A stretch of 64,000 nt of DNA from Mesostigma viride (taxonomy: Eukaryota; Streptophyta; Mesostigmatophyceae; Mesostigmatales; Mesostigmataceae): assembly GCA_009746045.1 (NCBI GenBank), contig RPFO01000389.1, forward strand, positions 1,790,482-1,854,481. Direction: 5' to 3'. Position 1 is the stretch's first letter. Each line of letters starts with the position of its first letter. Below are positions 2 to 33,993 of the stretch, in pieces. Both the position numbers and the translations under genes were made by a program. The notes below the pieces were generated by a model. The model worked only from the letters and a program-made list of their open reading frames with translations, had not been told where the DNA came from and did not search any database.

Positions 2-1477
2 GTGGAGCCAGTGGACCTAGTCCCAAGGGATGGCCGGTTGCTTCGTTTCAAATGGACCTTCCAGATGAAGCCGGTTCCCGGCACTGACAGGAAAGTAGAG
101 TTTGCTAGACCTGTGGTGCTAGAATTTTCTGGATCTTCTGACCTGCCCTCCTCAGCCCTGACTGCCCCGGGCTTAAATAAAGACACTTGGCGATTGTTAG
201 TGTGCTTTCATCTCGGGCGCCTCAACAAAGGCTTGCCGCATGGCTCCGTGGTGCTGGATTTTTCTAAGGCCTTCCTTAACGGGGATTCAGATGAGACGGC
301 TAAATTGTGGGAGGGCACCACACCGCTGTATGTTAGGACACCCAAGATGTGGGAACCTATTGTGGGCAAGAAGTTCATGAGGTTGGTGAAGGCTGTGGAT
401 GGGACCGTGGCCGGGCCGCGGGCGTGGCGCAAGAGTTTAGAGCGCCTTCTTCTTAACCGCGCACGCATGATGTACAGCGACCTGGACCCCTCCTTGTTTG
501 TTGGTGTCTGGAAGGGGGAGCTCGTGTTTGTTTTCGTGCATGCCGATGACTGTGACTGCCTGGGGCCACGGGAGTGGATTGTGTGGTTCCATTCGCTCGT
601 GCACTCAGTGTACCCTGTGGGCAAGCTCGTCTTTAGGGAGCCGGGCAAGATCGTGCCCTTCATGGGCATGGACACTATTCTCGATCACGATGAGCAAGGG
701 CAGCGGGTCATGTTGCTGCATCCTAAGGGTAGCTATGTCCCCGACCTGGTCAAGGAGGTCATGGCCCGCACTGGGCCTATCCTTCCCTCTGAGTGTGGTG
801 CGCTGCGTGGCAAACTCAATTGGCTTGCGTGTACCACGAGCCCTGACTTGGCTGTCCTTAGTCGGTTGACAGACGATGTTCTCTGCTTGTTGGCCCGCCC
901 GGTTGTAGCTGAGTATGTGCAGGCCTCACCGGGGTTGGTCCTGCAGGGTGTTGACTGGGACAAGCCCATCGAGCTAGGGGCTTATTGTGACAGTTCTTTG
1001 CATGCGCGGGTGCTCACCAAGATGCGTGGTAGGTGTGCGGCTGTTAGCTATATCTCAAACGCTGAACAATCTGCGCCATCCTCCATCTTTGCGTGGTTCT
1101 CACGTCTCCACCGCCGTGTGTATGTGGGGTCGGACACCGCCGAGGCGCGTGCGTACTGCGAGGCTGCAAGTGAGCTCGCGTATTTCCACGCGCTACTCTG
1201 CTGGATCCTCAAGCTGGGCGGTCTCACCACACGCATCGATCGCGTCATGCGCACCGACAGCCAAGCGCTGGTGGACTTCATTGAGAACCCCTACGCTCGC
1301 ACGAGAGACCTTGACTTCCTCCGGGTGAAGGAATTTTCTGATGCGCTCCATACCGAGCACGTGGCAGGCGACCAGCATTGCTCGGATGCTCTTACCAAGC
1401 TCTATAGCTCCGCCAAGGCATATACTCTTCTTAGGCACCAAATGAACAATATGTCGCTGGGTCAGCCACAGCACTAG
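2..1477 (+). CDS. pol: Copia-like pol, reverse transcriptase plus RNase H (5' cut by window edge)
   Basis: This 491-codon open frame has no break and is the C-terminal part of a Pol polyprotein. Reverse transcriptase runs to about residue 300. It has the first catalytic Asp at residue 86 in VVLDFSKAFLNGD, and the catalytic box HADD at 180-183 where copia elements usually have YVDD. The conserved copia segment before RNase H is seen as LNWLACTTSPDLAVLSRLTD. RNase H follows, with acidic residues in YCDSS, DTAEARAY, RTDSQ and SDALTK. The frame ends at a TAG about 220 bp before the 3' LTR. An intact frame suggests a young copy. It would copy element RNA into DNA and degrade the RNA strand inside virus-like particles. 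Confidence 0.88.
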   Translation: MEPVDLVPRDGRLLRFKWTFQMKPVPGTDRKVEFARPVVLEFSGSSDLPSSALTAPGLNKDTWRLLVCFHLGRLNKGLPHGSVVLDFSKAFLNGDSDETAKLWEGTTPLYVRTPKMWEPIVGKKFMRLVKAVDGTVAGPRAWRKSLERLLLNRARMMYSDLDPSLFVGVWKGELVFVFVHADDCDCLGPREWIVWFHSLVHSVYPVGKLVFREPGKIVPFMGMDTILDHDEQGQRVMLLHPKGSYVPDLVKEVMARTGPILPSECGALRGKLNWLACTTSPDLAVLSRLTDDVLCLLARPVVAEYVQASPGLVLQGVDWDKPIELGAYCDSSLHARVLTKMRGRCAAVSYISNAEQSAPSSIFAWFSRLHRRVYVGSDTAEARAYCEAASELAYFHALLCWILKLGGLTTRIDRVMRTDSQALVDFIENPYARTRDLDFLRVKEFSDALHTEHVAGDQHCSDALTKLYSSAKAYTLLRHQMNNMSLGQPQH

Positions 1478-3903: not shown

Positions 3904-4557
3904 AGTTAGCATATTGGGGCACCAATGTGCTAGATGGATGCAGGTTGAGGAGACCTTTCCAACGCCGTGTCAACCGCCTAGAACAGACAAGGGACTAGAA
4001 AGTTATCAAGTCCCGAAGTACTGCCGACCGGTGGGCGAGGGCGGTGCACACTCAGGACATAGTGGACAGGACACGTGGCAGGCCGTGCCTGCACAGGCTT
4101 AGCCTGGACTCTCACGTGACTGGGACACAGTGTGCTGAGGGCTCAACGGTACTGTGGCTAGTAGAAGCCAGTAACCAGCCAGCAGGTCTGCAAGGATGTA
4201 AGTCCTTGCAGGACTGTGGCAGGTCCTGTGCTGTCCTAGACACAGGATAGCCAGAGATTCCTGTATGCTGCCTGCAACGAGGATGCAAGGCAGCGATACG
4301 AGGCTCTGGCAATGTAGCGTTGCCCAGCGTTGCTCATGACCGAGGAACAAGGATGGAACGAGGTTGCATATAGCTCGAGGCTCAACGAGGCAACGAGCGT
4401 CTTCACACACGAACCTTGGTCGTCACGACGAGTGGCGAGCCTATCGAGGGTCGTAGGCCTGGTGTGAGGATAAAGGTTGCTAGCCAGCAGCCTAGGGTCA
4501 TTCCAGCCGGCAAGGACCAGGAGCTCACAAGCTCTGCTGACGAGTTGCTGCGCAAAT
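3904..4557 (+). repeat. 5' LTR of element B (654 bp)
   Basis: It starts AGTTAGCATATTGGGG and ends TGCGCAAAT. It is the same as 11629-12282 except for about four substitutions, such as GGACAT against GGGCAT and TGCGCAAAT against TGTGCAAAT. Its left half matches the C LTR, but its right end has lost the CTAACT terminus found in C. It should hold the promoter and the RNA start. Confidence 0.92.
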
Positions 4558-6084: not shown

Positions 6085-7102
6085 CTGTAGGAGCTGCTGT
6101 CATTGGCAGTGACCCTCGTGCTTTGCCTGGGACTAGACCTCATATGAGTGCTGTGGCTGTGATGAATGGCCAGAAGCCTCTCAAGCCTCCTGTGGGACAG
6201 GAAGAGCTAGACAAGTGGTTGGAGGATATGGAGCTAGTTTCATGCTCTGTAGATCCCACTGTCAACCTTGTGCAGGTATTCCACACATCCACGACTAATA
6301 GGGATTCAGTGAGCGTGTGAGGGACAAGGCTAGGCAGCTGTCAAGGACAAGCTGACTTGGTCTCAGTTCCTAGAGGGCCTACGTCAGGAGTTCTGATAAG
6401 GTACTCAACCTCACTAATCACTATAAGCTCAGCTATGATACCTTTGAGATCAAGGGCACAATAGCTGAGGAGCTGCAGCGGCTCACACGCATCAGGGAGA
6501 AGGGGGCCAAGCATGGCTTCAATCTGACTGACAGAGCAGTGGCAGATTACTTCCTGGATCGCATGGGGCTGAGTGTGGATGGGAGAAATGCAGCTAGGAT
6601 GTTTGCTGATCAGACAGATGGGACGTGGCCAGCCTTGCAAAAGGTTATTTTCAATATCCGTCCATCTGACAATGCTGCTTGCAAGGCAATCCAGGTGACT
6701 GGTGCCCCTTCAGCCTCCGCTCATCAGGTCCATGGTGACGCCCCTGGGCAGGGTGCTCAGGGAGAAACCAGACCTAGTAGGCGTCAGAGGGCTAACAGGC
6801 GCAGGCAGAATGGTAACCAGGGTGGCAAGGGCCAGCAGCAGGGATCCAAAGGCAAGGGTCAGCAGCAGGCTGGTGGTCACCAGGGTGGTCAGCAGAACAA
6901 GGGTGGCCAAGGGCAAGGCAAGAGCCAGGGCCAGGGCACCCAGGCCAGTCAGAGCAGCCAGAACCAGGGTGGCCTGAAGAAGGCTGCTGCTGGGAAGGAT
7001 GACAAGTGCTTTGGATGTGGCAGGACGGGTCATTGGCGACGTGACTGCCCAGACCAGGCCAAGTCTGCTGGAGCAGGCTCTGGCCAGGTGGGTAAGCCAT
7101 GA
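6085..7102 (+). pseudogene. gag: Gag C-terminal part of element B with zinc knuckle
   Basis: From about 6130 the frame resembles copia Gag: an N-terminal GQEELDKWLEDMELVS segment, broken by stops and a shift near 6320-6420, then an open frame to 7102. The last 187 codons (from 6539) hold a helical capsid-like part, a basic stretch rich in Gln, Gly and Lys, and one zinc knuckle CFGCGRTGHWRRDC (CX2CX4HX4C) that would bind element RNA. The stop is 6 bp before the pol ATG, and pol lies in a different frame. The breaks make a full-length Gag from this copy unlikely unless assembly errors explain them. Confidence 0.75.
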
Positions 7103-7108
7103 CTTGAG

Positions 7109-10100
7109 ATGTTGTCCCCTGTAAATAGTCAATCACCCCTAGTGGGACGAACAGTTGTACATAGTAATGGGGGTGTCCCTCTTGTGCAGCAGCAAGGGGT
7201 TGGGAATGATGAGGTGCTTCCACTCAATGATTGCAATAACGCTGCTGCAGCAGTGGAATTCCCTGTGCCTGTGGCAGGTGCAGGGTCTCCAGTTGTTGGG
7301 GTTGACTCTGGGAGTCAAGCCGCCAGACTGGAAGGACCTGCAGCTTCTGTGGGAACCGGGGCTGGCTCTGGGAGCCGAGCTACCTTGGAGGAGGTCCCTG
7401 GAGCAAGAGAACAGCAGGTGGGTCGTGCTATCCCAAGCACACAGTCTTTGTCACGTTCCTCTCTGTGCAGCCAGGCTGACAGGGGGTTGAGCTATGCTCA
7501 GGCTGGAAACACTCTACACCATATCTTTGGCCACTCTAAGCAGGCAGAGATGTTTGCTTGGAAGATTGGCAAGGAGCCTTTGCTAGAGGCCTGCAGTGCA
7601 GCTGCTCAGAATTGTGTCTGTCAGGAGAATGCTGTTCGCCTCCCACAGTCCCATGCCAGAGAACCTGCTAGAGAGCGGGGGGATATCCAGGTGGACATCC
7701 AACACATCAGGGGCATGTATCTGTTGGTGGGGGTGGATAGGTTTAGCAGATATAGGTTGCTGACCATTCTTCCTGGAATGCAGGAGCATCAGCTGTTGAT
7801 GGGTCTCCAGTCTTTGTTGCCAGGCTTTGGGGTGTACACCAAGGTGCAAGCTGACTTGCAGTTTGACTGCTTGATCAAGCTGGCTGACCAGCTTCCTTGT
7901 AAGTTGGTAGTGGTCCCTAGGGAATCCCATGGGCAGCAGGGAGCTGTAGAGAGATCTATACGTGAAGTAAAAACAGTGGTGCTAGCAGCTAGGAGTGTGC
8001 CTGTTGTGGCATCAGCTCTAGAGAAAGCAGCTTGGTGTAAGGGGATTGAGGAGCAGCTTAACCACAGGGTAACCTATTACTATGATGGTGTGGCAGTCTC
8101 TCCCCTGGCATTGCAGTTTGGTATGCTATCACAGGACGTGGTGGCAGCCTGCCTGAAGAAGGCAGACAGGGTGTTTTCCAGATTGAGGCGTAAGGACAAG
8201 GGTTGGAAAATGCTGAGGCCCCAGGTGGGACTGAGGGTCAGGATGTGGAAGGAACCGTCATTACCAGGCAAGCGTGGCAAGTGGCAAGATGGGCAGGTAA
8301 CCCATGTTGAGGAAGCTAACCATTCTTGTCTGGTGGCTTTGGAGAGTAATCCCAAGCACGTGTACAGGCTATCCTGGGCTCACGTCAAGGAGAGAAGGCC
8401 AACTGCAATCTGGCCTGAAGACGGCCCTGATCCTCCCTTGGAGGGAGATGAGCAGGATGAGAGCCAGGCAGCAGATGCTAACCCACCATGCTTGGATTAT
8501 GGTCTGTCCTGGATGGATGAGGGTGAGCAGGAGTCTGCTGAGACGTCTGTCACAAGGCCAGAGGTGGCCAGGGCTGCACCACAGTCCAGGGGGCTGCTTA
8601 TGGCGGACATCATTCGAGCTCTGCAGAACAGCAAGCGTGATCCCAAGGTATCTAAGCTCACGGGATGGGGGTCATGTGGGGCACCAGCACTAGAAGTGGA
8701 TACCAACTCACAGGTGTCCATTCTAAGGGTAGAGGATGCTGCAGGCTTGCAGTGGTCATCCCCTAGCTGCCTAGCTGTGTCTGATTTCTCTGGGAATGTG
8801 TCCATGAAGATCTTGGGAGAAGTGAGTGTGCCTATCCTGGGGGTGCCCACCACGTTCAGTGTGGTTGAAGGGTATCAGGGGCCTGCCATTCTAGGTCAGA
8901 ACTTCTTGTGCTTACCAGGGGTGAGGATATCCTCTGAGGAGCTAGCATTAGAAGGGCAGGGCCGCCTTCCCTTGCAGAGATATCGCTACTCCCAGGGTCT
9001 TAGTGTGGCTGTAAGGGCTGTGAGGGGTCTAGAGGCAGAGGGTCCTGATACAAAGGAGCCCATTGCTGGGGACCTGCTGATCCTCCCTACTACGTTTGAC
9101 CCACGTGAGTTGGGTGTGCAGAGGTACCAGATCCCAGGAACGAGTCCTGTACCTTGGCGCAAGCTAGTGGAGATGATGCAAAGCCCCAAGATGGCTAAGG
9201 CATGGACTCTTGGCTTTGTTGCTTCTGGGCATGAGTGGATAGTTGCCAACTGTGCAGAGCCTGTGGATGTCCTCCCTGAGGATCACCAGCTGCTCAGATT
9301 GATGTTTGTCCTCAAGCTCAAGGAGGTAGATGGCGTGCAGGTGCCACATGTTAGACCAGTTGTGACTGAGTACCATGGCACTGGACAGTTAGCAGATGAG
9401 GAGCTTTACACACCAGGGATGCTGCATGATACATGGAGGATTTTGTTGTGCATTTATTTGTCTTTTCTGCAGAAGGGGATACCCTATAGCTCTGTGTTGG
9501 TAGATTTCAAGAGGGCTTTTCTTAAGGGTGATCAGCAGGAAGCACAGGATACTTGGCGCACAATACCCCCTTTCTTTGTTAAGGTGCCTGCAGTGTGGAG
9601 GGCAGAGCTGAAGACGAGGTATTTGAGGATTCTCAAAGGCGTGGAAGGCCTTAGATCGAGTCCCATCATCTGGAGGAAGAGCTTGGAGAAGTACCTCAGG
9701 TCTGTCTGTGGTCTCTCAGTCTCTCCAGTTGATCCTTGTCTGTTTCAGGGTAGCTATGAGGGGCTGCCAGCGTTTGCCTCCCTGCATGGTGATGATCTGC
9801 ATCTCCTGGGCCATCCCACTTGGCAAGAGTTGACTCTGGCCAGGATCCAGAAACGGTTTGAACTGGGTAAGATCCAGTACATGGTTGAGAATGAGCCCAT
9901 GGTGTTTTGTGGAATGCAGGCGACCTTGGTCCATCAGCAGGGTACATGGTCCATCCAGCTGGAGGGTGGTAAGGATTATCCTCAGCAGATCATAGATGCC
10001 TTGCAGGAGCCCATCACCCAGGCCAGATGTGCAACAATACGAGGTATGTTGGCATGGCTGGCCAGCATTTGTGCTCCTGACCTGTTGGTACTGAGTCGGT

Positions 10101-10696
10101 TGACCGATTCCCAACTGGTTGAGGTGGGTGCTGAGAGAGTGGTAGAGGCTGTTCGCATGTCTCCCCCTCTCATGCTGGGTCCTTTGGATTTGTACAGGCC
10201 TTTTGACATGATGCTCTATGTGGACAGTTCTATGGATAGTAGGAAGGTCACAGAGGTCAGGGGCCGTGCAGCAGCATTAATATCCCTGGTGCAGGAACAG
10301 TCCTCTCTGGTCTGCTGGTACAGTCGGTTGCAGAACAGGGTAACTCCCAGCAGTGACATTGCTGAGTGCAGGGCAATCTGTGAAGGGCTTCATACTGCTC
10401 TTTACTTGAGGGAGCTATTTTACCAGCTATGTCAAGTGGCTTCCTGTCGGTTGCAGATGCACACACTGGTAAGAACTGACAGCATGGGCATGGTGCAGTT
10501 TGTGCACAGGCAGCTGGCCAGGAGCAGGGACCTTGATTATTTGTTGCTCAAGGAAATGTCTTGCTTAGCTAACATTGAACATGTGGCTGGCGTGGACAAC
10601 CCTGCAGATGCTCTCACCAAGCTGGAGGAGAAGGCTGAGCTGCAATACCCTTTGCTTCGTGGGCTCATGGCCTCCAAGGGGGGAGGGCCAGAGTAG
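7109..10696 (+). CDS. pol: Intact copia-like Pol with order INT-PR-RT-RH (1195 aa)
   Basis: One uninterrupted frame. Residues 125-171 hold a His/Cys zinc region (HHIFGH, CVC). The integrase core is 190-290 with D196, D249 and E281 (HGQQGAVERS). A C-terminal integrase part (GKRGKWQDGQV, VYRLSWAHVK) ends near 430. The retropepsin-like domain is 520-620: D531-T-N, then VPILGVPTTFSVVEGYQG and ILGQNFL, matching the DTG...ILG layout but with N for G. Reverse transcriptase follows (about 700-1000) with D799 in VLVDFKRAFLKGD and HGDD at 893-896. RNase H has D1039, E1086, D1124 and D1167. Standard copia Pol has protease before integrase, so this order is unusual. A short DSG at 66-68 near the N terminus lacks a following flap or ILG motif and is not conserved in C. 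Confidence 0.93.
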   Translation: MLSPVNSQSPLVGRTVVHSNGGVPLVQQQGVGNDEVLPLNDCNNAAAAVEFPVPVAGAGSPVVGVDSGSQAARLEGPAASVGTGAGSGSRATLEEVPGAREQQVGRAIPSTQSLSRSSLCSQADRGLSYAQAGNTLHHIFGHSKQAEMFAWKIGKEPLLEACSAAAQNCVCQENAVRLPQSHAREPARERGDIQVDIQHIRGMYLLVGVDRFSRYRLLTILPGMQEHQLLMGLQSLLPGFGVYTKVQADLQFDCLIKLADQLPCKLVVVPRESHGQQGAVERSIREVKTVVLAARSVPVVASALEKAAWCKGIEEQLNHRVTYYYDGVAVSPLALQFGMLSQDVVAACLKKADRVFSRLRRKDKGWKMLRPQVGLRVRMWKEPSLPGKRGKWQDGQVTHVEEANHSCLVALESNPKHVYRLSWAHVKERRPTAIWPEDGPDPPLEGDEQDESQAADANPPCLDYGLSWMDEGEQESAETSVTRPEVARAAPQSRGLLMADIIRALQNSKRDPKVSKLTGWGSCGAPALEVDTNSQVSILRVEDAAGLQWSSPSCLAVSDFSGNVSMKILGEVSVPILGVPTTFSVVEGYQGPAILGQNFLCLPGVRISSEELALEGQGRLPLQRYRYSQGLSVAVRAVRGLEAEGPDTKEPIAGDLLILPTTFDPRELGVQRYQIPGTSPVPWRKLVEMMQSPKMAKAWTLGFVASGHEWIVANCAEPVDVLPEDHQLLRLMFVLKLKEVDGVQVPHVRPVVTEYHGTGQLADEELYTPGMLHDTWRILLCIYLSFLQKGIPYSSVLVDFKRAFLKGDQQEAQDTWRTIPPFFVKVPAVWRAELKTRYLRILKGVEGLRSSPIIWRKSLEKYLRSVCGLSVSPVDPCLFQGSYEGLPAFASLHGDDLHLLGHPTWQELTLARIQKRFELGKIQYMVENEPMVFCGMQATLVHQQGTWSIQLEGGKDYPQQIIDALQEPITQARCATIRGMLAWLASICAPDLLVLSRLTDSQLVEVGAERVVEAVRMSPPLMLGPLDLYRPFDMMLYVDSSMDSRKVTEVRGRAAALISLVQEQSSLVCWYSRLQNRVTPSSDIAECRAICEGLHTALYLRELFYQLCQVASCRLQMHTLVRTDSMGMVQFVHRQLARSRDLDYLLLKEMSCLANIEHVAGVDNPADALTKLEEKAELQYPLLRGLMASKGGGPE

Positions 10697-11611
10697 ACCA
10701 AACAGCCTTGCTCTAGGTGGGAGGCATCCCAGTGGGCTGGGCAGCCACGTGGTGGCTGACAGCAGGTCCTTCAGAGTTCAGACACACTCTGCTGGACAGG
10801 GGTCAGGGTGGAGTCACTCCCCTGGCTGAGAATTTCGCCTGGCTCTGTCATGGAGCTGCAGAAGAGTCTTAAGGACTTTGTAATGGGCCTTGGGTCTTCA
10901 TGGAATGGACCCTGCAAGGGCAGCCCAAGTGTTGGCTCTAACAGGTTGCTGTACATTTGTATATATTCTCTGTAACCAACCTGTTGCATGCTAATAAAAT
11001 CCCTGGTTGTGTGACCATGTTGGACGTGGTTGCCAGGGGCCTCACTATGGGTTATACTCTTTATAATAAAACATAATCTTGTTATTGTCATGTCTTGTTG
11101 TTTGTGATGCTCAGTTCCAGGAGCTGATCCAAACCTGGAGGATATGGGGTGGGGTTCGATTCCCCAGCTGACCTCAGCCTGGCATGTATGAATCCTGAGT
11201 GAGACTCAGTGAGGACATGGGCTCCCCATGTGTTGGCTAACATTTGTCAGGGCTCTCTCAGTCTTTGGAAGGATTTAAAAGATAAAGGAGGCTCCGTGGC
11301 GGGCGCCATATGAACGGGCGCCTGTGATAACTGGATGACCAGGAACTCACAATAGTACGTTCATGGACTCCTCTATCCAAACTCCTCTGACTAAGTGAAG
11401 ACCTAACTTTAATCTACACCAGGTTCCCAAAGAAAGGGTTGGGATGTCATGTGGGTCAGAGGGCAACCTTTGAACCAATGAGCAGGCCTAGCTAATATTT
11501 GGAGGCACCTCAGGTTCCAAAAGAAAAGGCAGGTCTGGTCTCTGGGAGGGATCAGATGTCAAGGCTTGTGGGGACAGTGGCTGATAGGTTCTCAGGCTGG
11601 TCCAAGCTCCA
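10697..11611 (+). other. 3' untranslated region of element B
   Basis: No credible gene. AATAAAA motifs occur near 10991 and 11063. An inverted segment GGCGGGCGCCATATG...GGGCGCCTGTG lies at about 11297-11325. The region is homologous to the reversed 2616-3602 of element C, so it belongs to the family and is not a private insertion. Confidence 0.7.
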
Positions 11612-11628
11612 AAACAAGAAAGGGTTGG
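11612..11628 (+). other. Polypurine tract of element B
   Basis: AAACAAGAAAGGGTTGG abuts the 3' LTR start AGTTAGC. It has the same form as the tracts of A, C, E and F and supports the LTR boundary. Confidence 0.75.
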
Positions 11629-12282
11629 AGTTAGCATATTGGGGCACCAATGTGCTAGATGGATGCAGGTTGAGGAGACCTTTCCAACGCCGTGTCAACC
11701 GCCTAGAACAGACAAGGGACTAGAAAGTTATCAAGTCCCGAAGTACTGCCGACCGGTGGGCGAGGGCGGTGCACACTCAGGGCATAGTGGACAGGACACG
11801 TGGCAGGCCGTGCCTGCACAGGCTTAGCCTGGACTCTCACGTGACTGGGACACAGTGTACTGAGGGCTCAACGGTACTGTGGCTAGTAGAAGCCAGTAAC
11901 CAGCCAGCAGGTCTGCAAGGATGTAAGTCCTTGCAGGACTGTGGCAGGTCCTGTGCTGTCCTAGACACAGGATAGCCAGAGATTCCTGTATGCTGCCTGC
12001 AACGAGGATGCAAGGCAGCGATACGAGGCTCTGGCAATGTAGCGTTGCCCAGCGTTGCTCATGACCGAGGAACAAGGATGGAACGAGGTTGCATATAGCT
12101 CGAGGCTCAACGAGGCAACGAGCGTCTTCACACACGAACCTTGGTCGTCACGACGAGTGGCGAGCCTATCGAGGGTCGTAGGCCTGGTGTGAGGATAAAG
12201 GTTGCTAGCCAGCAGCCTTGGGTCATTCCAGCCGGCAAGGACCAGGAGCTCACAAGCTCTGCTGACGAGTTGCTGTGCAAAT
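11629..12282 (+). repeat. 3' LTR of element B (654 bp)
   Basis: The near-identical partner of 3904-4557, followed by the second copy of the GTAGC duplication (12283-12287). Confidence 0.92.
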
Positions 12283-12287
12283 GTAGC

Positions 12288-13136
12288 TGGTAGAAGAGCT
12301 CCCTCAAGTAAAGAGCAGTATGCAGCCCTTCACAGATTGCCCTGCCCTCAGCAATATCACTGCTGGGTGTAACCCTGTTCTGCAACCGACTGTACCAGGT
12401 AACAAGTGAGGTGTGATCTTGCTCCAGGGTAACTAATGCTGCTGCCCTGCCCCTAACCTCTGTGACCTTCCTATTGTCCATAGAACTGTCTACATAGAGA
12501 ATCATGTCAAGGGGCTTGTACAAATCCACAGGACCCAGTATAAGAGGGGGAGACATCATGACAGCCTGCACCACACTCTCAGCACCCACCTCAACTAGCT
12601 GGGAATCAGTAAGTCGACTCGATACCAGCAAGTCAGGGGCACATATACTTGCAAGCCATGCCAGCATGCCCCTGATGGTAGCACACCTAGCCTGCGTGAT
12701 GGGCTCCTGCAATGCATCTACAATCTGCTGTGGATAGTCCTTACCACCCTCCATCTTGATGAACCACGAGCCCTTGGCCTGGAATAACGTAGCCTGCATG
12801 CCACAGAAGACCATAGGCTCATTCTCCACCATGTGCTGTATCTTACCCAGCTCAAACCGCTTCTGGATCTTGGCCAAAACAGCCTCAACCCAGTCTGGTG
12901 GACCTAGGAGATGCAGGTCATCACCATGCAGTGAGGCAAAGACAGGGAGGCCATTGTGGGACCCTTGGACTCGGAACAAACAGGGATCCACTGGAGACAC
13001 AGAAAACCCACAGGTACTCTTCAAGAATTTCTCTAGGCTCTTTCTCCAGATGATGGGACTGGACCTGAGACCTTCCAACCCTTTGAGAATTCTCAGGTAC
13101 CTGGCCTTTATCTCTGCTCTCCATACAGCAGGTACA
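12288..13136 (-). pseudogene. pol: Reverse transcriptase/RNase H segment of element C pol
   Basis: The minus strand encodes about 280 codons homologous to B pol. They include EGLRSSPIIWRKSLEK, the catalytic ASLHGDDLHLLG (about 12912-12947), APDLLVSSRLTD, and the RNase H start YVDSSMDNRKVTEV and PSSDIAEGRA. The apparent ORF runs on into the LTR of B only by chance. The left edge is the GTAGC target and the right edge the GTACA target, so this is C sequence trapped between insertions B and E. The RNase H Glu segment reads DIAEGRA where B has DIAECRA, leaving the acidic residue intact. Confidence 0.9.
13132..13136. other. Target-site duplication of element E, left copy (GTACA)
   Basis: GTACA at 13132-13136 recurs at 19269-19273. 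Removing E and one copy rejoins the element C reverse transcriptase: the sequence either side matches the antisense of B pol near 9575-9600. Confidence 0.93.
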
Positions 13137-13565
13137 AGTTGTGCTCCCGAGTGGCATCTATCCGCTGGCCGGTAGTCGCCGGCCTGGGCGCCTAGTCAGG
13201 TGGGCATCAAAGATTGGTGTCTAGATGCTAGTCGGTGCCTAAGCAAGGTACGGAAGCCAGTGCGCGCCGGGACGGTCAGAGAACCGTCGCCCTCGGTAGC
13301 ACAGATCCGCTGAGTGCCGGTAGTCTCGGGTTAGAGGCTCGAGCATGCACTATCGGGTAGCCTACCGGTAGTCTCGGGTTAGAGGCTCGAGCATGCCTTA
13401 TCGGTTAGCGCCGCGCCGCTGAGCTCCTTGCGGCCTGGCCAGCTGCAAGGGTTCAATAGCAATCAGTGGCGGCTGCGGGCTCAGCCTCCCACAATCGGTT
13501 CCCCAAACAACAAAAATCCCGTCTCCATCGCCGGCGTGCTAGCCAGCGGTGAAGGGCATTCAACT
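13137..13565 (+). repeat. 5' LTR of element E (429 bp)
   Basis: It starts AGTTGTGCTCCCG and ends GGGCATTCAACT. An internal direct repeat of about 50 bp (GGTAGTCTCGGGTTAGAGG at about 13318 and 13367) is present in both LTRs. The base after it is TGTATTCACAACAG, unlike the primer site of B and C, so the primer differs or is not recognised. Confidence 0.93.
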
Positions 13566-13611
13566 TGTATTCACAACAGTCAACATTACCGTTGACCATT
13601 TTTCTGGGCTC

Positions 13612-14817
13612 ATGGCGCGTGGCGCGGAGCGAACGCCAGCTGCAACCCAGGACCAGGGAACGCAAGCATCAACTCCGGCGGATGGGAGTGGCGCAGCCAC
13701 CGTGGCGACTGAGCCAGCTGGTGGCTCGGTCAGCACAGCTCCGGGGCAGCAGTCAGCACCAACTGCCCGGAAAGTTTTCAAGAAAGAAGAGCTGCCAAGT
13801 AAGCTGCCAGAAGTTCTGACGCCGTCCGCCGTGGAGGAGTTTATTAACAGCCTGGGCGAGCTCCGGCAGGACTACAACGAACTGTCCGACGCAGTTTTCC
13901 TCACCAAGCTGCGCCGGTCAGAGGTATGCAACGAGGCTACGGGTAATGCGGACGTGCGAGGGGTCATTATCAACGCCAGCAAAGAGGCGTGGACCTGGCC
14001 CGACACAGTGAAGGCCCTGCAAGAGGTGCTCGACACCTCAAGCTTTCCTGACAAGGAAAAGGAGGGGCAGGCGCTGGTGCGCAACCTGTCGCTTGACCCG
14101 AATTACCTCAGCTCGGACATGGCCAGATTCGCGGCCCAGGTCCGGAGCAAGGGTGTCTTGAAGCACATGAGTAGCGAATATTTACTCAGCGCAGTTCTGG
14201 ATGCGCTGGGGCTGACGCCAGAGAGCCGTGCCAATGTCAAGGCCGGTCTCGGCATGAAAATTGCGCTAGCTTCTTCCGTGGTAGTGGGCACCCCGGACGA
14301 CCAGAAACGGTTCAACGCAGCCATGGCGCACCTCCGAGAGATGTTCAAGGACCGGGGCGGCCCCAGGCGTAACAACAAGCTGCCGACAGTTGCTCAGGTA
14401 AACCCTGTTCCTGCCTCGACCCCGCCAGCAGCTTCTCTGTCGGACTTGACCACTCTTGTTACCCAGCTGTCCACGACGGTGGCCGACAACGTGGTGCGAA
14501 TGTTGGGTGGCAAACGCCGAGCTCGCGGTGGTCGGCACAACCAGAACGCGTCCAGCAAACGCGGGCCGGGAGGCGGTCAGGGCAAGCAGCCTCGACAGGA
14601 GGGCGGCGCTGGCAGGCAGCAACAGCAGCAGGGTGGCGTCCCCAAGGAGAAGGTCGTCTGCGAGCGGTGCACCGGCGTGGGGCACACCGAGGCCAACTGC
14701 ACGCTGCGGCTGGACCTCGGCAAGGCGACTCGAGTGTGCCGGCGCTGCTGGGCGGTTCGGCTTCCTGGACACGACCCCAACACATGCCGCGCCCCACGGC
14801 CAGCCATGCCCAAGTGA
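13612..14817 (+). CDS. gag: Gag of element E with two zinc knuckles
   Basis: The frame is open from within the LTR; I choose the ATG at 13612 (MARGAERTP), 46 bp after the LTR, giving 401 residues. The N-terminal 60 residues are low in complexity. The helical capsid-like part spans about 60-270 (KLPEVLTPSAVEEFINSL, then NLSLDPNYLSSDMARFAAQV). A basic Gly/Gln/Arg-rich stretch comes next, then a classic knuckle CERCTGVGHTEANC (CX2CX4HX4C) and a second, longer one, CRRCWAVRLPGHDPNTC (CX2CX7HX4C). It should form the particle shell and bind RNA. The frame is unbroken, in contrast to pol downstream. Confidence 0.85.
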   Translation: MARGAERTPAATQDQGTQASTPADGSGAATVATEPAGGSVSTAPGQQSAPTARKVFKKEELPSKLPEVLTPSAVEEFINSLGELRQDYNELSDAVFLTKLRRSEVCNEATGNADVRGVIINASKEAWTWPDTVKALQEVLDTSSFPDKEKEGQALVRNLSLDPNYLSSDMARFAAQVRSKGVLKHMSSEYLLSAVLDALGLTPESRANVKAGLGMKIALASSVVVGTPDDQKRFNAAMAHLREMFKDRGGPRRNNKLPTVAQVNPVPASTPPAASLSDLTTLVTQLSTTVADNVVRMLGGKRRARGGRHNQNASSKRGPGGGQGKQPRQEGGAGRQQQQQGGVPKEKVVCERCTGVGHTEANCTLRLDLGKATRVCRRCWAVRLPGHDPNTCRAPRPAMPK

Positions 14818-14832
14818 CGTCATAGAGGTGAT

Positions 14833-15171
14833 GTGTGTCGCGGTGAGTCGGCTAGGCGTGAGGATGCTGTGCCTTGTAGTCCTAATGTTCCCACGTCCGT
14901 GGTTCAGAATGGAAGTGCAAGTGCTGCAGCTGATCAGGAGTGCGTGCCCAGCGTGGTCGCAATAGAGCCTGAACACGCCCTTCCGGAGCTCACCCCTTCA
15001 GGTGAGATAGTGCCGGCAGATGCCGAGGTAGCCCCTCACGTAGACGTGGAGTTGGGTCGCCGCCTCAGTAAGGCCTCACTAGAGCACATTGCCGACAGGA
15101 ATGCACATGCAGAGAGCTTGGCGGGGCAGGTGCCTAGCATAGAAGGGGATGGCACCACCCCCCGGCCATAG
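14833..15171 (+). pseudogene. pol: N-terminal pol segment of element E
   Basis: A 112-codon frame starts 15 bp after the gag stop and ends at a run of six C (about 15158-15163). Past it, the integrase zinc region continues in another frame from 15174. The segment is acidic and shows no protease motif, which matters because standard copia protease would lie here. Confidence 0.6.
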
Positions 15172-15173
15172 GA

Positions 15174-16901
15174 TTGCGGATGCTTGCTCACCAGATTCAC
15201 CTTGCGGTGGGTCATGTGGCGGGGCAAACGCTAGACTGGGCGACTAGGCTTATGGGGGCGCCGGGGTTGAAGGTCGCTCAGGCGGAGTTAGAGGAGTGCC
15301 ACGCATGCGCAAGTGTCAGGAAGAAGCGTAGGCGCTGGCATGCTAAGACTCCTTCCCCGTACCGGGGGAGGTTAGTGGGGGATGTCATGCATTTGGAGGA
15401 GGGGGACTATTATTTGGTCTTGATGGATCGCTATACCAAGTTCCTAGCCATCGAGCCCCTGCCAAGCATGGTAGAGGAGTCCTTGTGGCGGGGGCTGCGC
15501 ATTGCCATGTCTCACTTCTTTCCCATTTCTGAGGTCATGTTGGACCAACAATTTGATTGCATTGTGGGGCGGGAGGGCTGTGAGATGGTGGTTATTGCTG
15601 GGCGGCAGGACCATGGCAACTTGGGGCTGATTGATAGGCACATCAGCAGCGTAAAGGGCATGGCAGCCAAGCAGCAGGCCAGCGGGTTAGGATTCAAGCC
15701 CGCGGGGCAGCCTTATGCACAACGCGCGCTGTGGTGCCGCTTGCTCATGGACAAGTACAACAGCCAGGTGCTTTTCAAGCTGCCCCAGGGACTAGGTCTT
15801 ATTACCGCGCGGGGGCTGCAGTCGGGCATTTACCCTCCGGACGTGGCAGACCATTGGGAGGCCCACCTCGCTACCACCGCTGAGGTTAGGCGGCAGTTAG
15901 ACCGCACCCAGCCTGACTTGTCGCAGGAGTGGGAGCTGGGGGAGTTGGTCTTGTTTCACAAGGAGAATTCCTTTGGCAAGCGGGGGCAGATGCAAGGGCC
16001 AGGCATGGTGGTGGATTTGGACTGGGTGCATAGGCGGGTGAAGGTGCACTGGGAGCATAGGGACTATCTCATCCCGTGGGATAAGGTGTATCGGTACAAG
16101 GCGTCCGATGCCCAGGTCCAGGCGGCCAAGGAGCACAGCCGCCAGCTCGGTTGGGATGTGGATAGCCGGCCGGCCAAGCGGGCCCGGCTGGAACCTGTCC
16201 TACCCACCCCACTTGGGGTGGCTGTGCATGATGCGCTTGTTGCCCACCCCCCTGCAGGCGCCGCGCCGGAGCAAGTCCCCGGGGTCGACGCGGGGGCGCT
16301 ACCTCAGCCCCTCCCCGCGACCCCAGCAGCGCCCACCGTGGCGGCGCCGGACACATCGTCAGGCGCGGGCGTGGGCTCCCAGCTGGCCCACGTCCTCCGA
16401 CAGCTGCTCAAGGCGGACAAGCTCAAGGCGGCGGCAGCGGGGGGTGCGGCACAAGTCAGCCGCGTCATGCCAGATAAGTGCCCCACCGTTGTGACTGAAG
16501 CTCATGATGTTCCCTCTAGGCATATTGCGGCCATAGATACCATGGCAGGCGTGTCTATCACGAGCCCGGCGGCGGCCGAGGCCTATTACCCTTTGCTGCC
16601 CAGTAGTTGGAAGGAAGTTGCGGGGTTTGACGGGCAGCGGGCCTATAAGGTGGCTGGGCAGGTGCTCATGCCCATCCTAGGGGTAGATGTCCCTGTGCAA
16701 GTGCTAGAGGGTTACAAGGGGATCACCCTCATAGGTAACCCTTTTGTTTCCCTCCCCGGGTTTTCTGTGTCAGCCGGCTTGGTGACCCTCGAGGGGGTGG
16801 GGAGCATAGGCTTGTACCAATATCACGTAGCGCTTGCAGCCCTCACGGGCCGGGGTCCCCCGAGGCTATTAATCACCCTGAGGATTATGCCACTGCAGTA
16901 G
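15174..16901 (+). pseudogene. pol: Integrase and protease-like part of element E pol
   Basis: 575 open codons. The first 45 residues hold the His/Cys zinc region (HQIHLAVGH, ECHAC). The integrase core follows with D70 (GDVMHLE) and D124 (MLDQQFDC). At the place of the third catalytic residue, QDHGNLGLIDRHISSVKG has D154 where B has Glu. The integrase C-terminal part contains GELVLFHKENSFGKRGQ. The retropepsin-like domain is at about 445-545: D455-T-M, MPILGVDVPVQVLEGYKG, LIGNPFVSLPG. The frame is lost at a CCCCC run near 16857, and reverse transcriptase continues in another frame. This confirms the INT-PR order in a second family. Confidence 0.85.
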
Positions 16902-18839: not shown

Positions 18840-19268
18840 AGTTGTGCTCCCGAGTGGCATCTATCCGCTGGCCGGTAGTCGCCGGCCTGGGCGCCTAGTC
18901 AGGTGGGCATCAAAGATTGGTGTCTAGATGCTAGTCGGTGCCTAAGCAAGGTACGGAAGCCAGTGCGCGCCGGGACGGTCAGAGAACCGTCGCCCTCGGT
19001 AGCACAGATCCGCTGAGTGCCGGTAGTCTCGGGTTAGAGGCTCGAGCATGCACTATCGGGTAGCCTACCGGTAGTCTCGGGTTAGAGGCTCGAGCATGCC
19101 TTATCGGTTAGCGCCGCGCCGCTGAGCTCCTTGCGGCCTGGCCAGCTGCAAGGGTTCAATAGCAATCAGTGGCGGCTGCGGGCTCAGCCTCCCACAATCG
19201 GTTCCCCAAACAACAAAAATCCCGTCTCCATCGCCGGCGTGCTAGCCAGCGGTGAAGGGCATTCAACT
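18840..19268 (+). repeat. 3' LTR of element E (429 bp)
   Basis: It appears identical to 13137-13565 and is followed by the second GTACA (19269-19273). Confidence 0.93.
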
Positions 19269-19273
19269 GTACA

Positions 19274-20586
19274 GTCACAAAGAAAGGAGGGATATCTCTC
19301 CAAGTCTGCCTAGCCTGATCCTGGTCACCTTAAGAAAAGCCCTCTTGAAATCAATCAGCACAGAGCTATAGGGCACACCCTTAACCAGAAAAGACAGAAA
19401 TATACACAGCAGAATCCTCCACGTGTCATGCAGCATCCCTGGAGTATAGAGCTCCTCATCTAACAACTGGCCAGTGCCATGATACTCGGTTACAACTGGT
19501 CTGACATGTGGCACCTGGACACCATCTACTTCCTTGAGCTTGAGGACAAACATCAATCTGAGCAGCTGGTGAACTTCTGGCAGCTCATCCACAGGTTCTG
19601 CACAGTTGGAAACTATCCACTCATGCTTAGAAGCAACAAAGCCAAGAGTCCATGCCTTAGCCATCTTGGGGCTTTGCATCATCTCGACTAGCTGGCGCCA
19701 GGGAATAGGACTGTGAGCAGCTATCTGGTACCTGTTTACCCCTAACTGCCGTGGATCAAAGGTGGTTGGGATGATCAACAGGTCCTCAGCTATGGGCTCC
19801 TGACCTTGGGGACCCTCAGCATGCTGACTCTGCCTTCTACTCAGCAGCCTTGACCGCCACTGCAAGACCCTGGGAATAGTGATATCTTTCAAGGGGGAGG
19901 CTGCCTCTGCCTTCTAGTGCCAACTCATCAGAGGTCAAAGTAACCCCTGGCATGCACAAGAAGTTCTGACCCAGTATGGCAGGCCCCTGATAGCCCTCTA
20001 CCACACAGAACGTGGTGGCCACCCCTAAGATAGGCACACTCACTTCCCCTAGGATCTTCATGGACACCTTTCCTGAGAAATCAGACACAGCAAGGCAACT
20101 GGGATGGGACATCTGCAAGCCTACAGCATTCTCTTCCCTGATGACAGACACCTGTGAGTTGGTATCTACCTCCATTGTAGCTGCCCAGCACGACCCCCAC
20201 CCCGTGAGCTTGGATACCTTGGGATCATGTTTGCTGCGCATGAGTGCCCGGATGACGTCCGCCATGAGAGGCCCCCGGGCCTTAGGTGGCTGCCCCGTCC
20301 CCTCTGGCCTTGTGACAGTTGCTTCAGCAGCCTCTTCCTGCTCGTCATCCTCCAGCAGGGACAGACCCTCATCCACCACCAGAGGATTGTTAGCTGCTGC
20401 TGCCTGGCTCTGGCCTGCATGGCTCCTCAACCCAGCTGGGAGGGCCTGGCCCGTCTGCAGGCCAGATTGCATGTGGCCTTCTCTCCTTGACATGAGCCCA
20501 GGACAACCTGTACACGTGCCTTGGATCCTTTTCCAAAGCCACCAGGCAAGATCTGTTAGCTTCTTCCACACGAGTGACCGCCCCAT
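19274..20586 (-). pseudogene. pol: Protease-like domain and start of reverse transcriptase, element C pol
   Basis: Two minus-strand frames (20586-19837 and 19892-19275) match B pol residues of about 410-810. The first carries the protease-like domain: MEVDTNSQVSVIREENAVGL, VPILGVATTFCVVEGYQG and ILGQNFLCMPG. The second starts in LLSRRQSQHAEG and runs through QEPIAEDLLIIPTTFDPRQL to SSVLIDFKRAFLK, which holds the first catalytic Asp of reverse transcriptase. A frame break near 19865 separates them. The right-hand break near 20450 separates this part from integrase. The DTN triad is the same as in B. Confidence 0.88.
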
Positions 20587-21715
20587 CCTGCCACTTCCCC
20601 CGCTTGCCTGGAATAGATGGTTCCTTCCACATCCTGACCTTCCGCCCCACCTGAGGCCTCAGCACATTCCAGTTCTTGTCCTTACGCCTCAGCTGGGCAA
20701 ACAATCTGTCTGCCTTCCTAAGACTGGCCTGCACCACGTTTTCAGGTAATAAGCTATACTGCAGGGCCAGGGGAGAGACATCCACACCATCAAAGTAATA
20801 ATTAACCCTGTGGTTCAGCTGCTCCTCTATCCCCTTACACCAGGCTGCCCTCTCTAAGGCAGATGCCACAAGTGGCACTGTCTCTGCTGCTAGCACCACT
20901 GTCTTCACTTCACGTATGGATCTCTCTACAGCCCCTTGCTGCCCATGACTCTCTCTGGGGACTACTACCAGCTTACAAGGCAGCTGGTCCTGATGCTTGA
21001 GCAAACAGTCAAACTGCAAGTCTGCCTGCACACTCTTGCACACCCCAAAGCCTGGGACCAGGGCCTTCATACCCAACAACAAGTGATGCTCCTGCATACC
21101 AGGCAGAACGTCTATCAGTCTGTATCTACTGAACCTGTCCACCCCCACCAATATATACAAGCCCCTGATATGCTGGATATCCATCTGGATGTCGCCACGC
21201 TCCCTAGCAGGCTCCCTAGCATGGGACTGGGGTGGGTGAACAGCATTCTCCTGGCAACCACAGTTCTCAGCAGCAGCCTGGCACGCCTCCCATAAAGGCT
21301 CCCTTCCTAGCTTCCAAGCAAACATTGCAGCCTGCCCAGAATGCCCAAACATGTGATGCAACCTATGGCCAGCCTCAGCATAGCTCAGCACTCTCTCAGT
21401 ACTGACCTGGCGAGACGTCTGAACCGTGTGTGGGGACACATGATCCACTCCTGAGGTTCCAGGGCTTAATTCCCTGCAAGCCTTCCTGACTCCCCAAGCC
21501 AGGTCCTGCACCCTGGACCGCTCCAGGCCCTTCCAGCAAGGTCCTTTGGCCCTCCAGGCCAGCACCTGCTGGAGACCCACCACCTGCATGAGGAATAGGG
21601 AATTCAGCTGCAGCATTGTTATTGCAATCCAGTGGAAGAACAGCATCTTTACACCCTTGGTGCTGCACAAGGGGCACACCCCCATCCTTATGTACATCCA
21701 GCACACCTTCCCCAA
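20390..21715 (-). pseudogene. pol: Integrase part of element C pol
   Basis: The minus-strand frame matches B pol from residue 120 to about 430: LSYAEAGHRLHHMFGHSGQA, NCGCQENAVHPPQSHA, RGDIQMDIQHIRGLYILVGV, QADLQFDCLLK, HGQQGAVERSIREVKTVVLA and KRGKWQDGAVTRVEEA. The catalytic D, D and E are all present. The first 80 codons before the homology are in a wrong frame; the natural start lies in the overlapping frame at 21704 (MLDVHKDGGVPLVQHQG), like MLSPVNS...GGVPLVQQQG in B. That N-terminal part lacks the DSG seen in B, so the DSG is not a protease site. Confidence 0.88.
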
Positions 21716-21752
21716 GGGGTGATTGACTATTTACAGGGGATGGCGCAACTAG

Positions 21753-29974: not shown

Positions 29975-30452
29975 GATTTTGTAGACTAGATAGCTTAGAG
30001 TTAGCTTATTTCGATGTCGCGGCTTGACCCACCTCTACCCATTCAGCAAGGAATATGCATGTGCTGCATGATCTCCCAACGGAGGCATGTTATAATTTTA
30101 TTTGATTCTTTAATGTAGTGTCTTGGGGCATGATGCAGATGAGATTTGTAACTTCCGTGTAATTATGTTTCTAAAGAGATTAGCATAGTACTCTAAACAT
30201 GCCCATGCGCATGACACGCAAGTACTAACTTACTTACACCAGACCTGGCAATAAACAAGCATTGATGGGATGGACCCAGCGATACATAATGGGCGTGCAT
30301 GCGTAAAAAATATACACTATGCATGGCCCAATGGGCATGCATTCAAATAATTACAAATGAAGGCCGCATGAGAGCACTGAAGCTAAACCAGACCGGGCCA
30401 CAATTAACCCTCCAGCACCAAAGTTCCACTGCATCATGTAAGACAAGCCTGA

Positions 30453-31050
30453 CATCCATCCATCCATCCATCCATCCATCCATCCATCCATCCATCCATC
30501 CATCCATCCATCCATCCATCCATCCATCCATCCATCCATCCATCCATCCATCCATCCATCCATCCATCCATCCATCCATCCATCCATCCATCCATCCATC
30601 CATCCATCCATCCATCCATCCATCCATCCATCCATCCATCCATCCATCCATCCATCCATCCATCCATCCATCCATCCATCCATCCATCCATCCATCCATC
30701 CATCCATCCATCCATCCATCCATCCATCCATCCATCCATCCATCCATCCATCCATCCATCCATCCATCCATCCATCCATCCATCCATCCATCCATCCATC
30801 CATCCATCCATCCATCCATCCATCCATCCATCCATCCATCCATCCATCCATCCATCCATCCATCCATCCATCCATCCATCCATCCATCCATCCATCCATC
30901 CATCCATCCATCCATCCATCCATCCATCCATCCATCCATCCATCCATCCATCCATCCATCCATCCATCCATCCATCCATCCATCCATCCATCCATCCATC
31001 CATCCATCCATCCATCCATCCATCCATCCATCCATCCATCCACCCATCCA
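30453..31050. repeat. (CATC)n microsatellite, about 598 bp
   Basis: An almost pure tetranucleotide array of about 149 units with one variant unit (CACC) at the right end. It starts 15 bp before the outer edge of the F LTR. The encoded IHPS and WMDG repeats in several frames are artefacts of the array. The true length may differ from the assembly. Confidence 0.97.
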
Positions 31051-31064
31051 TTGATCGGGGTATA

Positions 31065-31802: not shown

Positions 31803-32501
31803 TTATGACAAGGGTTTCCCAGTCATCATGGACCGCAGCAACTGGTACCCATTAAGGGCCAGTCGTGGAAGCTTGGTCATAGCATCAGCAGGATTTGAAT
31901 GTCCTGGCAGATGTATGGTCATACAGTGGCTGGACAACTCTTTTGCCACAAGGTAGTCCAAGTCAGTAGTAGTGGCCCTCTCATTCTTGATAAAAGAGAC
32001 CACGGGCTTATTATCACAATAAACCCTGACATCAATCACAGGTTGAGGTCTTATCTGACTCAGACACCATAAGAGTAGCTCTCTTATGTACATGGCGTCG
32101 CGAATGCACATGGCGTATGCCCTGCACTCGGCTGAGTCAATGCCAGCAAACCGCCTCCTCTGAAGGTTACTGGACCAGTATACCAACGAGGGCTGTTTGC
32201 CTTCATTCCTGATGGTGATCAGGCATCCGGCTCTGGCACCAGTCTTGTTGGCAGATCTAGACTCTTGGCTAGCATCTGTGTAGGCGTCTATGATGATACG
32301 CCTAATATGCCAGTCTACACCAGACAACACCAAGTCAGGAGATTCATTGAGGCAGCTTTCCAGGCGCCTCCTTCCTTCTCCTACAATAACAGAGTCTGGC
32401 ATCCTACTCTGTACTGCCAGGTCAGGGTTAGTTGTGGCAGCCAGCCAACCCAGTTGACCTTTAACCGTAGGGGCATTCTCCTCAGTTACTCTCTTGGGCA
32501 A
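31803..32501 (-). pseudogene. pol: RNase H fragment of copia-like element F
   Basis: The minus strand encodes 232 residues: the end of reverse transcriptase (VKGQLGWLAATTNPDLAVQS) and RNase H with YTDASQESRS, GIDSAECRAYA, YCDNKPVVSFI and NPADAMTKL. The reverse transcriptase core is missing. The frame starts only 9 bp after the Gag stop, so integrase, protease and the polymerase were deleted from this strand. Confidence 0.85.
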
Positions 32502-32509
32502 CTGAGTTA

Positions 32510-33061
32510 TTAGTTTTTCTGCTGCTGCTTCCTCTTGCGGCCATGAGAGCTACTGCCACCACGCGGCTGAGAAGCATCACTACCACGCGGGTGGGAAGCG
32601 TCACCACCACGCGGCTGAGAAGCGTCACCACCACGAAGGGCACCGCTCTTGACGGCTTGGGAGATCTGCTGCAGCAGCTTGAGCACTTCCATCTGGGTAT
32701 CCTTAGGTCCAGCGCCAGCCTTGCTCCTGCAGGCAGACGCAACATGACCAGGACTGGCACAAGACTTGCACTTGTGAAAGTAGCAATCCTTAGCCAGATG
32801 GTTAGTCTTGTTACAAAAAGTGCAAGGAGGGAAGGACTCAGAATTAGCGACAACCTTACCCTTACATGCGCGGCGTGTGTGCCCGGGCTGCCCGCAGTTG
32901 TAGCAGAAGATTTCCCTTTGCTGCTCCATCACCATGGCGACACGAGGTACCTCCGCGGCACCTCCTTCTCTGGAAACACGGGTTTGGTTCGTCAAGAGCT
33001 CCTTGAGGTGAGCTCTGCATCGATGAGTGTCGCTCAGGTAACCGCGGCAGTTGGCGACTAA
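32510..33061 (-). pseudogene. gag: Gag C-terminal part of element F with three zinc knuckles
   Basis: The minus frame holds LSDTHRCRAHLKELLTNQTR upstream. It then has three CX2CX4HX4C knuckles in a row: CYNCGQPGHTRRAC, CTFCNKTNHLAKDC and CKSCASPGHVASAC. After a linker, an RGGDASQPRG-type repeat of four units and a basic tail precede the stop. B and C have one knuckle and E two, so knuckle number varies across these families. The right edge (about 33061-33100) is a break where plus-strand integrase sequence starts. Confidence 0.8.
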
Positions 33062-33102: not shown

Positions 33103-33993
33103 ATGGGTTTATATAGTGCGTGGTGTTCCATGGCTGGACTAGCAGGTGGCCTCTACCCTGATGACATCATGCAGACATGGAGTAAGCAGAGGTGGACACA
33201 GTATGCTCACCTCTGTGAAAAGGATAAACAGAGGGGAGAATCATTAAAATTTAAGGTGGGAGACCAGGTGATCTTCCACAAAGAAAATGCTCCTGGTAAA
33301 CGCGGTTATTGGCAGGGTCCAGGGACCATAACCTCAGTTGACCCGGAGATGAAAACTGCTGATGTGGTCTGGAATGGTACCACTTATCATCTGGCTTGGA
33401 ATAGATTGAAGAGAGATCCAATGAACGTTCAAGTTAATGAAGAAAATCCCCTGGTGAATATGGCCCCTGAAGAGGCATCTGGATCTCCCAATCTTTCCTG
33501 TCCACCTTTGGCCAGTGAACAGGCTGAACTCCAACTACCAGAAAGGGCGGCCTCCCATCAACTGGAGCCTACTACTCAGCAAGCTCAGCCTAAGACATTG
33601 ACTGGGATATCACAGGATGATATATTTGAAGCTGACTTGTTGGATAATAGGGTGTCTGATCAGCACCGGAAGCTCCGGCCGTTGGAACATGGGCTTGAGA
33701 CCCCTGGGCAGGTGGATAACATATTTCAGTCTGAACAGCCAAAGATTGGATTCAATTACCCTGGTGATAAGCCAATGCCCTTGGAGACTGATGGGAAAAT
33801 ACCAGCCCAAGGAAGACAGGCTGAGGAGGGGTTGTCCAGGTTGAACACTCAGCTCGGCAAGAGGGGCAATCCTCAAGAGCTTCAAGATATTGTAAAGAAG
33901 CTCAAGCCTTCACCAAAGATTGCCAAAATAACTTCTCTTCTAGAGAAGGGCATGGACCTTGATGGCTTTGATGTGGATACCAAAGCAGTATAG
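33103..33993 (+). pseudogene. pol: Integrase C-terminal part up to the protease edge, element F (plus strand)
   Basis: 296 open codons. They start in an integrase segment like that of E (AGGLYPDDIMQTWSKQRW, then VGDQVIFHKENAPGKRGYWQ and VVWNGTTYHLAWNRLKRDP). A low-complexity linker of about 160 residues follows, then ELQDIVKKLKPSPKIAKITS, which matches the pre-protease segment of B. The last residues, GFDVDTKAV, correspond to the DTN site of B, where the frame stops. This is independent support for integrase being followed by protease, in a third family. Its strand is opposite to gag and RNase H of F, so the locus was inverted or assembled from two insertions. Confidence 0.75.

Follow-up and report, generated by a model that had tools for sequence, protein, structure and literature searches.

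Several long terminal repeat (LTR) retrotransposons, here designated A, B, C, E and F, are present in a stretch of 64,000 nucleotides from the genome of the early-diverging streptophyte Mesostigma viride (C1491:1790482-1854481, referred to as the window). Together with the families B2 and H (H1-H3), which were found when the whole assembly (439.9 Mb, 2243 contigs) was searched, they form a clade of recently active, high-copy LTR retrotransposons whose Pol polyprotein is arranged in the order integrase (INT), retropepsin-type protease (PR), reverse transcriptase (RT) and RNase H (RH). A previous reading of the window from its letters, the sequence-only reading, had proposed this order for element B, and the positions that it gave for the integrase residues D196, D249 and E281, for D531-T-N and for ILGQNF at residue 594 were all reproduced. 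Element B has the following features:

3904..4557, plus strand: 5' LTR of B, flank GTAGC, ends set by eye
6374..7099, plus strand: 3' open piece of B gag with a CCHC zinc knuckle, ending at TGA 7100-7102
7100..7108, plus strand: in-frame gag/pol junction of B, TGACTTGAG, candidate readthrough site
7103..10696, plus strand: open frame of B pol with its first ATG at 7109, an intact frame of 1195 amino acids (7109-10696)
7505..8041, plus strand: B integrase, HHCC and DDE core (D196, D249, E281), hhalign E 1.4e-4, B residues 133-311
8648..8986, plus strand: retropepsin-like domain of B, DTNS at 8699-8710, ILGQNF from 8888, matches by hhalign, AlphaFold2, Foldseek and VIA
9260..10087, plus strand: B reverse transcriptase of copia type, HGDD box at 9785, hhalign E 1.1e-14, B residues 718-993, also matched by hidden Markov model (HMM)
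10163..10627, plus strand: B RNase H of copia type, hhalign E 2.6e-6, B residues 1019-1173
11629..12282, plus strand: 3' LTR of B, ends set by eye

The two LTRs of B agree at 645 of 649 ungapped positions (3905-4553 versus the 3' LTR), and a 5-bp duplication, GTAGC, was recognized by eye.

The domain order was read from a profile of eight aligned open-frame Pols (B, B2, the protein P0011, E from locus L033, F from L037 and H1-H3 from L039-L041; the E sequence ends inside RNase H), which was compared by hhalign with retropepsin profiles and with those of domains from ordinary copia elements, the E-values applying to single comparisons. Projected onto B, the copia INT, RT and RNase H matches fall at the residues listed above, and the retropepsin match covers residues 530-609 (E 1.6e-3); the copia protease gave a weak match only, at 528-586 (E 0.1). 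Among six small pieces considered for deepening the alignment, L043 was kept, L044 and L046 have stops in frame, L048 is frame-broken and L045 and L047 are near-copies. The same order is present in the degraded elements C, with its DTNS domain at 19864-20274 on the minus strand, and A. The residues D70 and D124 of the E integrase and DTM at 455-457 (window 16536) were recovered where the sequence-only reading had seen them, and the F frame in the window does stop at the same junction, just after D-T-K-A (33976-33993).

Open copies are numerous; the counts are taken among the matches listed and are hence lower bounds. B pol is free of stops over residues 1-1195 in 26 of 39 genome matches listed, and all 38 matches listed for B2 are stop-free with frames of 1196 amino acids. 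Full frames were obtained for E at no fewer than 13 loci elsewhere in the genome (1249 amino acids, 78 matches; L033 translated into RNase H), for F at 46 or more (1344 amino acids, 133 matches; L037 translated in full) and for H at 15 or more (1320 amino acids, 80 matches). Motifs were checked at 30 B loci and in the other families mostly in one copy each. The earlier argument that at least three families share the order, which speaks against chance, is thus borne out by B, B2, E, F and H, open at many loci, and by C and A, degraded with the same order. In the ordinary copia Pols used as a control the order is PR-INT-RT, as had been assumed, in 86/86 cases (three placed by Pfam too); they are the proteins of at least 1200 amino acids among the best 120 of 4622 and represent one copia neighbourhood.

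Relatives were also obtained from other sources, namely P0011 (ENA), P0015 (source 'lgn') and two Mesvir1 gene models: P0016, which is 85% identical to B, and P0017, whose 544 residues are matched to 100% in the assembly. These are the four proteins listed in a protein search with alignment A3. A scan of viral contigs with A3 gave 119 pattern matches, none of them confirmed, a scan with P0012 was likewise fruitless, and a search of a phage collection with B2 pol returned nothing useful. The sequence-only reading knew of no described lineage with this order, and no INT-PR-RT-RH element was found among the open-access papers listed for domain order or for Mesostigma. Two M. viride genome papers (one of them PMC6947507) describe LTR elements as abundant, and a domain-order analysis was not met in their accessible parts.

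The middle domain is predicted to have a retropepsin fold. Its AlphaFold2 model reached a predicted local distance difference test score (pLDDT) of 85.5 and a predicted template modelling score (pTM) of 0.80, and a Foldseek search with this model listed retropepsins in 50/50 PDB rows. The retropepsin profile scored 33.2 compared to a maximum of 19.65 over 200 column shuffles (0/200 as good), and the match is therefore beyond chance. A PDB sequence search with the four-row alignment A1 gave no match at E 10, and an AlphaFold run on three sequences ended at pLDDT 41, so that no conclusion was taken from that model. Ratios of nonsynonymous to synonymous substitution rates (dN/dS) between H1 and H2 are 0.107 for PR, 0.067 for RT-RH and 0.44 and 0.76 for the linkers (synonymous changes in INT saturated); between H1 and H3 they are 0.096 for INT, 0.079 for RT-RH and 0.47 and 0.60 for the linkers (PR saturated), and between B and B2 0.298 for PR, 0.296 for INT, 0.178 for RT-RH and 0.50 for the N-terminal linker (second linker saturated). 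Between families, the retropepsin-like domain is 33-45% identical and RT 35-58%, compared to 10-26% for the linker before the domain. Constraint similar to that on INT and RT, together with conservation above that of the linker, marks the domain as a working part and not a relic.

By sequence similarity of RT, RNase H and integrase the clade is copia-like, but we refrain from classing it with ordinary Ty1/copia because its Pol order is different. The earlier assignment to a copia lineage thus stands in part: it agrees with these three domains and disagrees with the domain order, and the RT tree leaves the relation to copia unfixed. An HMM built from 30 copia RT-RH sequences matched 10/10 rows of the lineage with E-values from 8.5e-16 to 5.9e-5 and the gypsy sequence with 0.05 (set of 11 sequences). 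P0017 passes for Pfam RVT_2 (E 1.6e-12), B and P0011 remain below the cut-off, and B2, E and F are not listed; RVT_1 is not listed for any member of the lineage, the gypsy protein P0005 from the window serving as contrast. In an RT-RH tree with 40 rows, drawn from a sample without named lineages, nine lineage rows lie on one side of a branch (100/100), and their stem measures 8.0 changes per column. Since the branches are long, the single gypsy row (branch 10) is placed within the copias and the bootstrap had not converged, the tree shows the unity of the clade and not its placement, and it was discarded as proof of copia membership.

With Ty1/copia the clade has in common the RT, RNase H and HHCC-DDE integrase profiles, a zinc-knuckle gag, LTRs and 5-bp duplications; it differs in a protease located after the integrase, the lack of D-S/T-G, the HGDD box and LTR ends AGTT.. 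instead of TG..CA. It resembles Ty3/gypsy in that the protease directly precedes RT, whereas RT and RNase H match copia, the integrase comes before the protease and PR-RT-RH-INT was not encountered. In the gypsy element Gmr1 the integrase reportedly does not precede the protease, unlike in the clade. The available text on Gmr1 describes an integrase upstream of RT, a precedent for a moved integrase (PMC3587641). Further literature for comparison was the accessible text on Troyka (PMC12440569) and the Gypsy Database network (PMC2774666).

The order may have originated in three ways: a copia protease may have been relocated, it may have been lost and a retropepsin of gypsy/DDI1 type captured beside RT, or an integrase may have been placed before a PR-RT-RH block. 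The middle-domain profile matched gypsy and DDI1 retropepsins with E 3.9e-5 and the copia protease with E 0.025, a similarity that leans towards capture; it leaves the question undecided, as gypsy plus DDI1 retropepsins and the copia protease themselves match each other with just E 0.0053. Tentatively, and as a possibility rather than a probability, we suggest that the clade is an LTR lineage at superfamily level in an early-diverging streptophyte, with its own order INT-PR-RT-RH and a protease that would have been gained from a gypsy/DDI1-type source and would work without the glycine. A separate superfamily-level lineage that diverged close to the root of copia or earlier, with INT-PR-RT-RH being ancestral or arising from a gypsy-like PR-RT-RH block with an integrase in front, appears doubtful, though deserving of attention. 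The stem of the clade to the sampled copias is nearly as long as the branch of the single gypsy row, the protease is closer to the gypsy plus DDI1 set than to that of copia, PR adjoining RT is the gypsy adjacency, and the RT box is HGDD. On the other hand, the copia HMM matches RT-RH in every lineage row at E 5.9e-5 or better, RVT_2 matches P0017 and RVT_1 is listed for no member, RNase H and INT match copia too, and copia proteases are divergent in themselves, as their E-value against gypsy and DDI1 indicates.

How such a Pol could be expressed is suggested by the gag-pol junction. After one UGA, pol continues the gag frame in B, B2, E and H1-H3, with the context UGACUUGAG in B and B2, UGACGUCAU in E and UGACUAG in H1-H3. 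Among 30 B copies the junction reads TGACTTGAG in 26 and TGACTTGAA in three (one not read), B2 has the same nine bases as B, and UGACUUGA[GA] is kept in 29/30 B copies (one not read). The candidate sites for programmed readthrough are:

7100-7108 of the window: UGA junction of B
L031, 3944-3952: UGA junction
L039, 1381-1387: UGA junction of H1, in a copy whose gag itself is broken
L040, 1659-1665: UGA junction of H2
L041, 1503-1509: UGA junction of H3

In F, the two genes overlap (L037 2586-2652), pol being shifted to the -1 frame, and the gag end, G AAA AAC UAG, is slip-like; with in-frame UGA junctions in the other families, sister families thus seem to differ in their recoding, readthrough versus -1 frameshift. 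UGA CUA G is described as a high-readthrough motif in the accessible part of a study on human genes (PMC12233894). Tca2 of Candida albicans likewise carries UGA between gag and pol, and as far as its report is accessible the junction alone gave no readthrough in yeast (PMC2194720); compared on the junction alone, H1-H3 contrast with Tca2 by their high-readthrough motif.

We propose, with a probability of about 70%, that these are working elements whose Gag-Pol is made by UGA readthrough, or by -1 frameshifting in F, and is cut by the central retropepsin. The element would be transcribed from its LTR and Gag would be made; a fraction of ribosomes would continue in frame through the gag UGA (B, B2, E, H1-H3) or slip by -1 (F) and thus produce Gag-Pol; in the particle, the central domain would dimerize and cut Gag-Pol, releasing the integrase on its upstream side and RT-RNase H on its downstream side, and the integrase would insert the copy with a 5-bp duplication. 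Proteolysis, recoding and particle maturation are the inferred steps of this scheme; the order, the predicted fold, the constraint, the many near-identical open copies and the 5-bp duplications for three copies are supported directly. Three points weigh against it. D-[ST]-G is present in the middle domain of none of the families examined, the G always being replaced while D, T and [AS] are kept, compared to D-S/T-G in 82/86 ordinary copia proteins. Readthrough as a demonstrated step had to be dropped, as the gag UGA of Tca2 is not read through by context alone. Finally, HMMs of known proteases are too weak to detect the central domain itself when sequences are scanned singly, and an equally divergent copy upstream of the integrase could escape them.

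The missing glycine bears on activity. The published protease consensus is D-S/T-G-A, according to the accessible part of a paper on the Ty1 protease (PMC6952103). In the clade, the third active-site residue gives DTN in B, C, B2, P0011 and H1 (DTNS in 30/30 B loci), DTD in H2 and H3, DTM in E, DTK in F and DTQ in A, and a degraded H copy, L044, has NTD. The ordinary copia proteins that escape the D-S/T-G pattern comprise one DSGT, one DCG and two matches short of the motif; a looser pattern gave 79. The RT box, usually YxDD, is HGDD, or HADD in A, and E and F have D as the third acid of the integrase. With DDI1 and retroviral retropepsins the domain has in common the predicted fold, D-T, the flap glycine and the second motif [IL][LI]G, and it differs in its third active-site residue, N, D, M, K or Q. 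Because the glycine is replaced in every family examined, protease activity can only be inferred; retention of the Asp in all families and the strong constraint on the domain lead us to consider an active enzyme more likely than a dead one. The missing glycine would also suit a structural or dimerization module with a retropepsin fold and without protease activity, a host protease maturing the particle or no maturation taking place. We regard this as unlikely, albeit not negligible, as the catalytic Asp, whose loss would be expected in a pseudo-enzyme, persists together with the Thr across families that share only about a third to half of the domain, the flap glycine and [IL][LI]G are kept, and the constraint on the domain is close to that on INT (0.298 versus 0.296 for B-B2).

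A true protease overlooked upstream of the integrase, with the central domain as an extra, is very improbable. The sequence-only reading had seen no protease motif between gag and integrase, and HMMs of retropepsins and copia proteases gave no credible match there either (best E about 2) in eight element copies from seven families (E twice, several without ends), scanned along with a gypsy control as 746 open reading frame (ORF) pieces. The retropepsin HMM found the gypsy control (E 7e-37, a member of its own training set) and missed the central domains, so that this negative is weak on its own. The HMM of the lineage's own protease, however, gave one strong and credible match per copy in 8/8, between INT and RT, and the best retropepsin match of the eight-Pol profile is the central one, the only other listed having E 0.39 over 17 columns. 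The linker between gag and INT is of low complexity and shows 10-32% identity from family to family (45% for H1-H3) and dN/dS of 0.50-0.76. A D-S-G in the B linker (residues about 67-69) was considered as a remnant protease and rejected; it is not kept in B2, P0011, E, F and H. That the order is an artefact of assembly or annotation, or a chance rearrangement of one copy, can practically be dismissed in view of many open-frame loci in five family groups and the relatives P0011, P0015, P0016 and P0017 from other sources; nothing was seen in its favour.

The other members of the clade in the window are:

13137..13565, plus strand: 5' LTR of E, AGTTG...CAACT, flank GTACA (repeat 13137-13565)
13549..14817, plus strand: E gag with zinc knuckles; its stop opens TGACGTCAT, with pol in the same frame
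15174..16901, plus strand: piece of E pol, frame-disrupted in this copy, with integrase D70, D124 and D154 and retropepsin-like DTM at 16536
18840..19268, plus strand: 3' LTR of E, ends set by eye
19278..21752, minus strand: C, a degraded relative, with integrase at 20393-21730, retropepsin-like DTNS at 19864-20274 and the start of RT at 19278-19913
33103..33993, plus strand: F fragment that starts in the C-terminal part of the integrase and reaches DTKA in the retropepsin-like domain, 93% to F pol residues 391-670
31806..32519, minus strand: F fragment covering the C-terminal part of RT as well as RNase H, 96% to F pol 1108-1344
2..1477, plus strand: A, a further family, RT-RNase H with HADD box; integrase and DTQA domain just beyond the window (L042), with frame breaks
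12284..13135, minus strand: RT fragment of the B family, 84% to B 826-1107

The LTRs of E are identical at 422/422 ungapped positions (13140-13561 versus the 3' LTR) with a duplication GTACA seen by eye, and those of the F copy at 483/483, with a duplication GGTGG that was seen by eye and sits in a repeat. LTR ends read AGTTG..CAACT in E (13137-13565, 18840-19268) and F (L037 916-1397), with the usual TG..CA three bases inside, and the LTR terminus of B is GCAAAT. Eight E-like copies of equal score (e.g., C1413:4402507-4404231), 88% to E, each contain one TGA and six TAG in the integrase-protease frame; they may perhaps represent a stop-bearing subfamily that still multiplied, either trans-mobilized or duplicated after C-to-T decay.

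The window also holds a nearly complete gypsy element (49707-58171) with LTRs identical at 526/527 positions, a protease-RT-RNase H frame and a separate integrase frame, at the end of which there is a stretch that we take to be chromodomain-like. Long arrays of 8-bp tandem repeats occupy 30293-31104, which contains several overlapping open frames, and 39489-40409, and two long ORFs lie at 42460-44106 (548 amino acids) and, on the minus strand, 41054-42232 (392 amino acids).

LTR superfamilies are delimited by their domain order, and an element with a different one may be dropped by survey pipelines, as stated in the accessible part of Neumann (2019, PMC6317226). A high-copy and recently active clade with the order INT-PR-RT-RH means that order filters can hide real lineages. 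Next to Gmr1, the clade represents a second type of rearranged Pol in nature, and its retropepsins without D-S/T-G constitute a natural set that offers a direct way to probe the need for the glycine.

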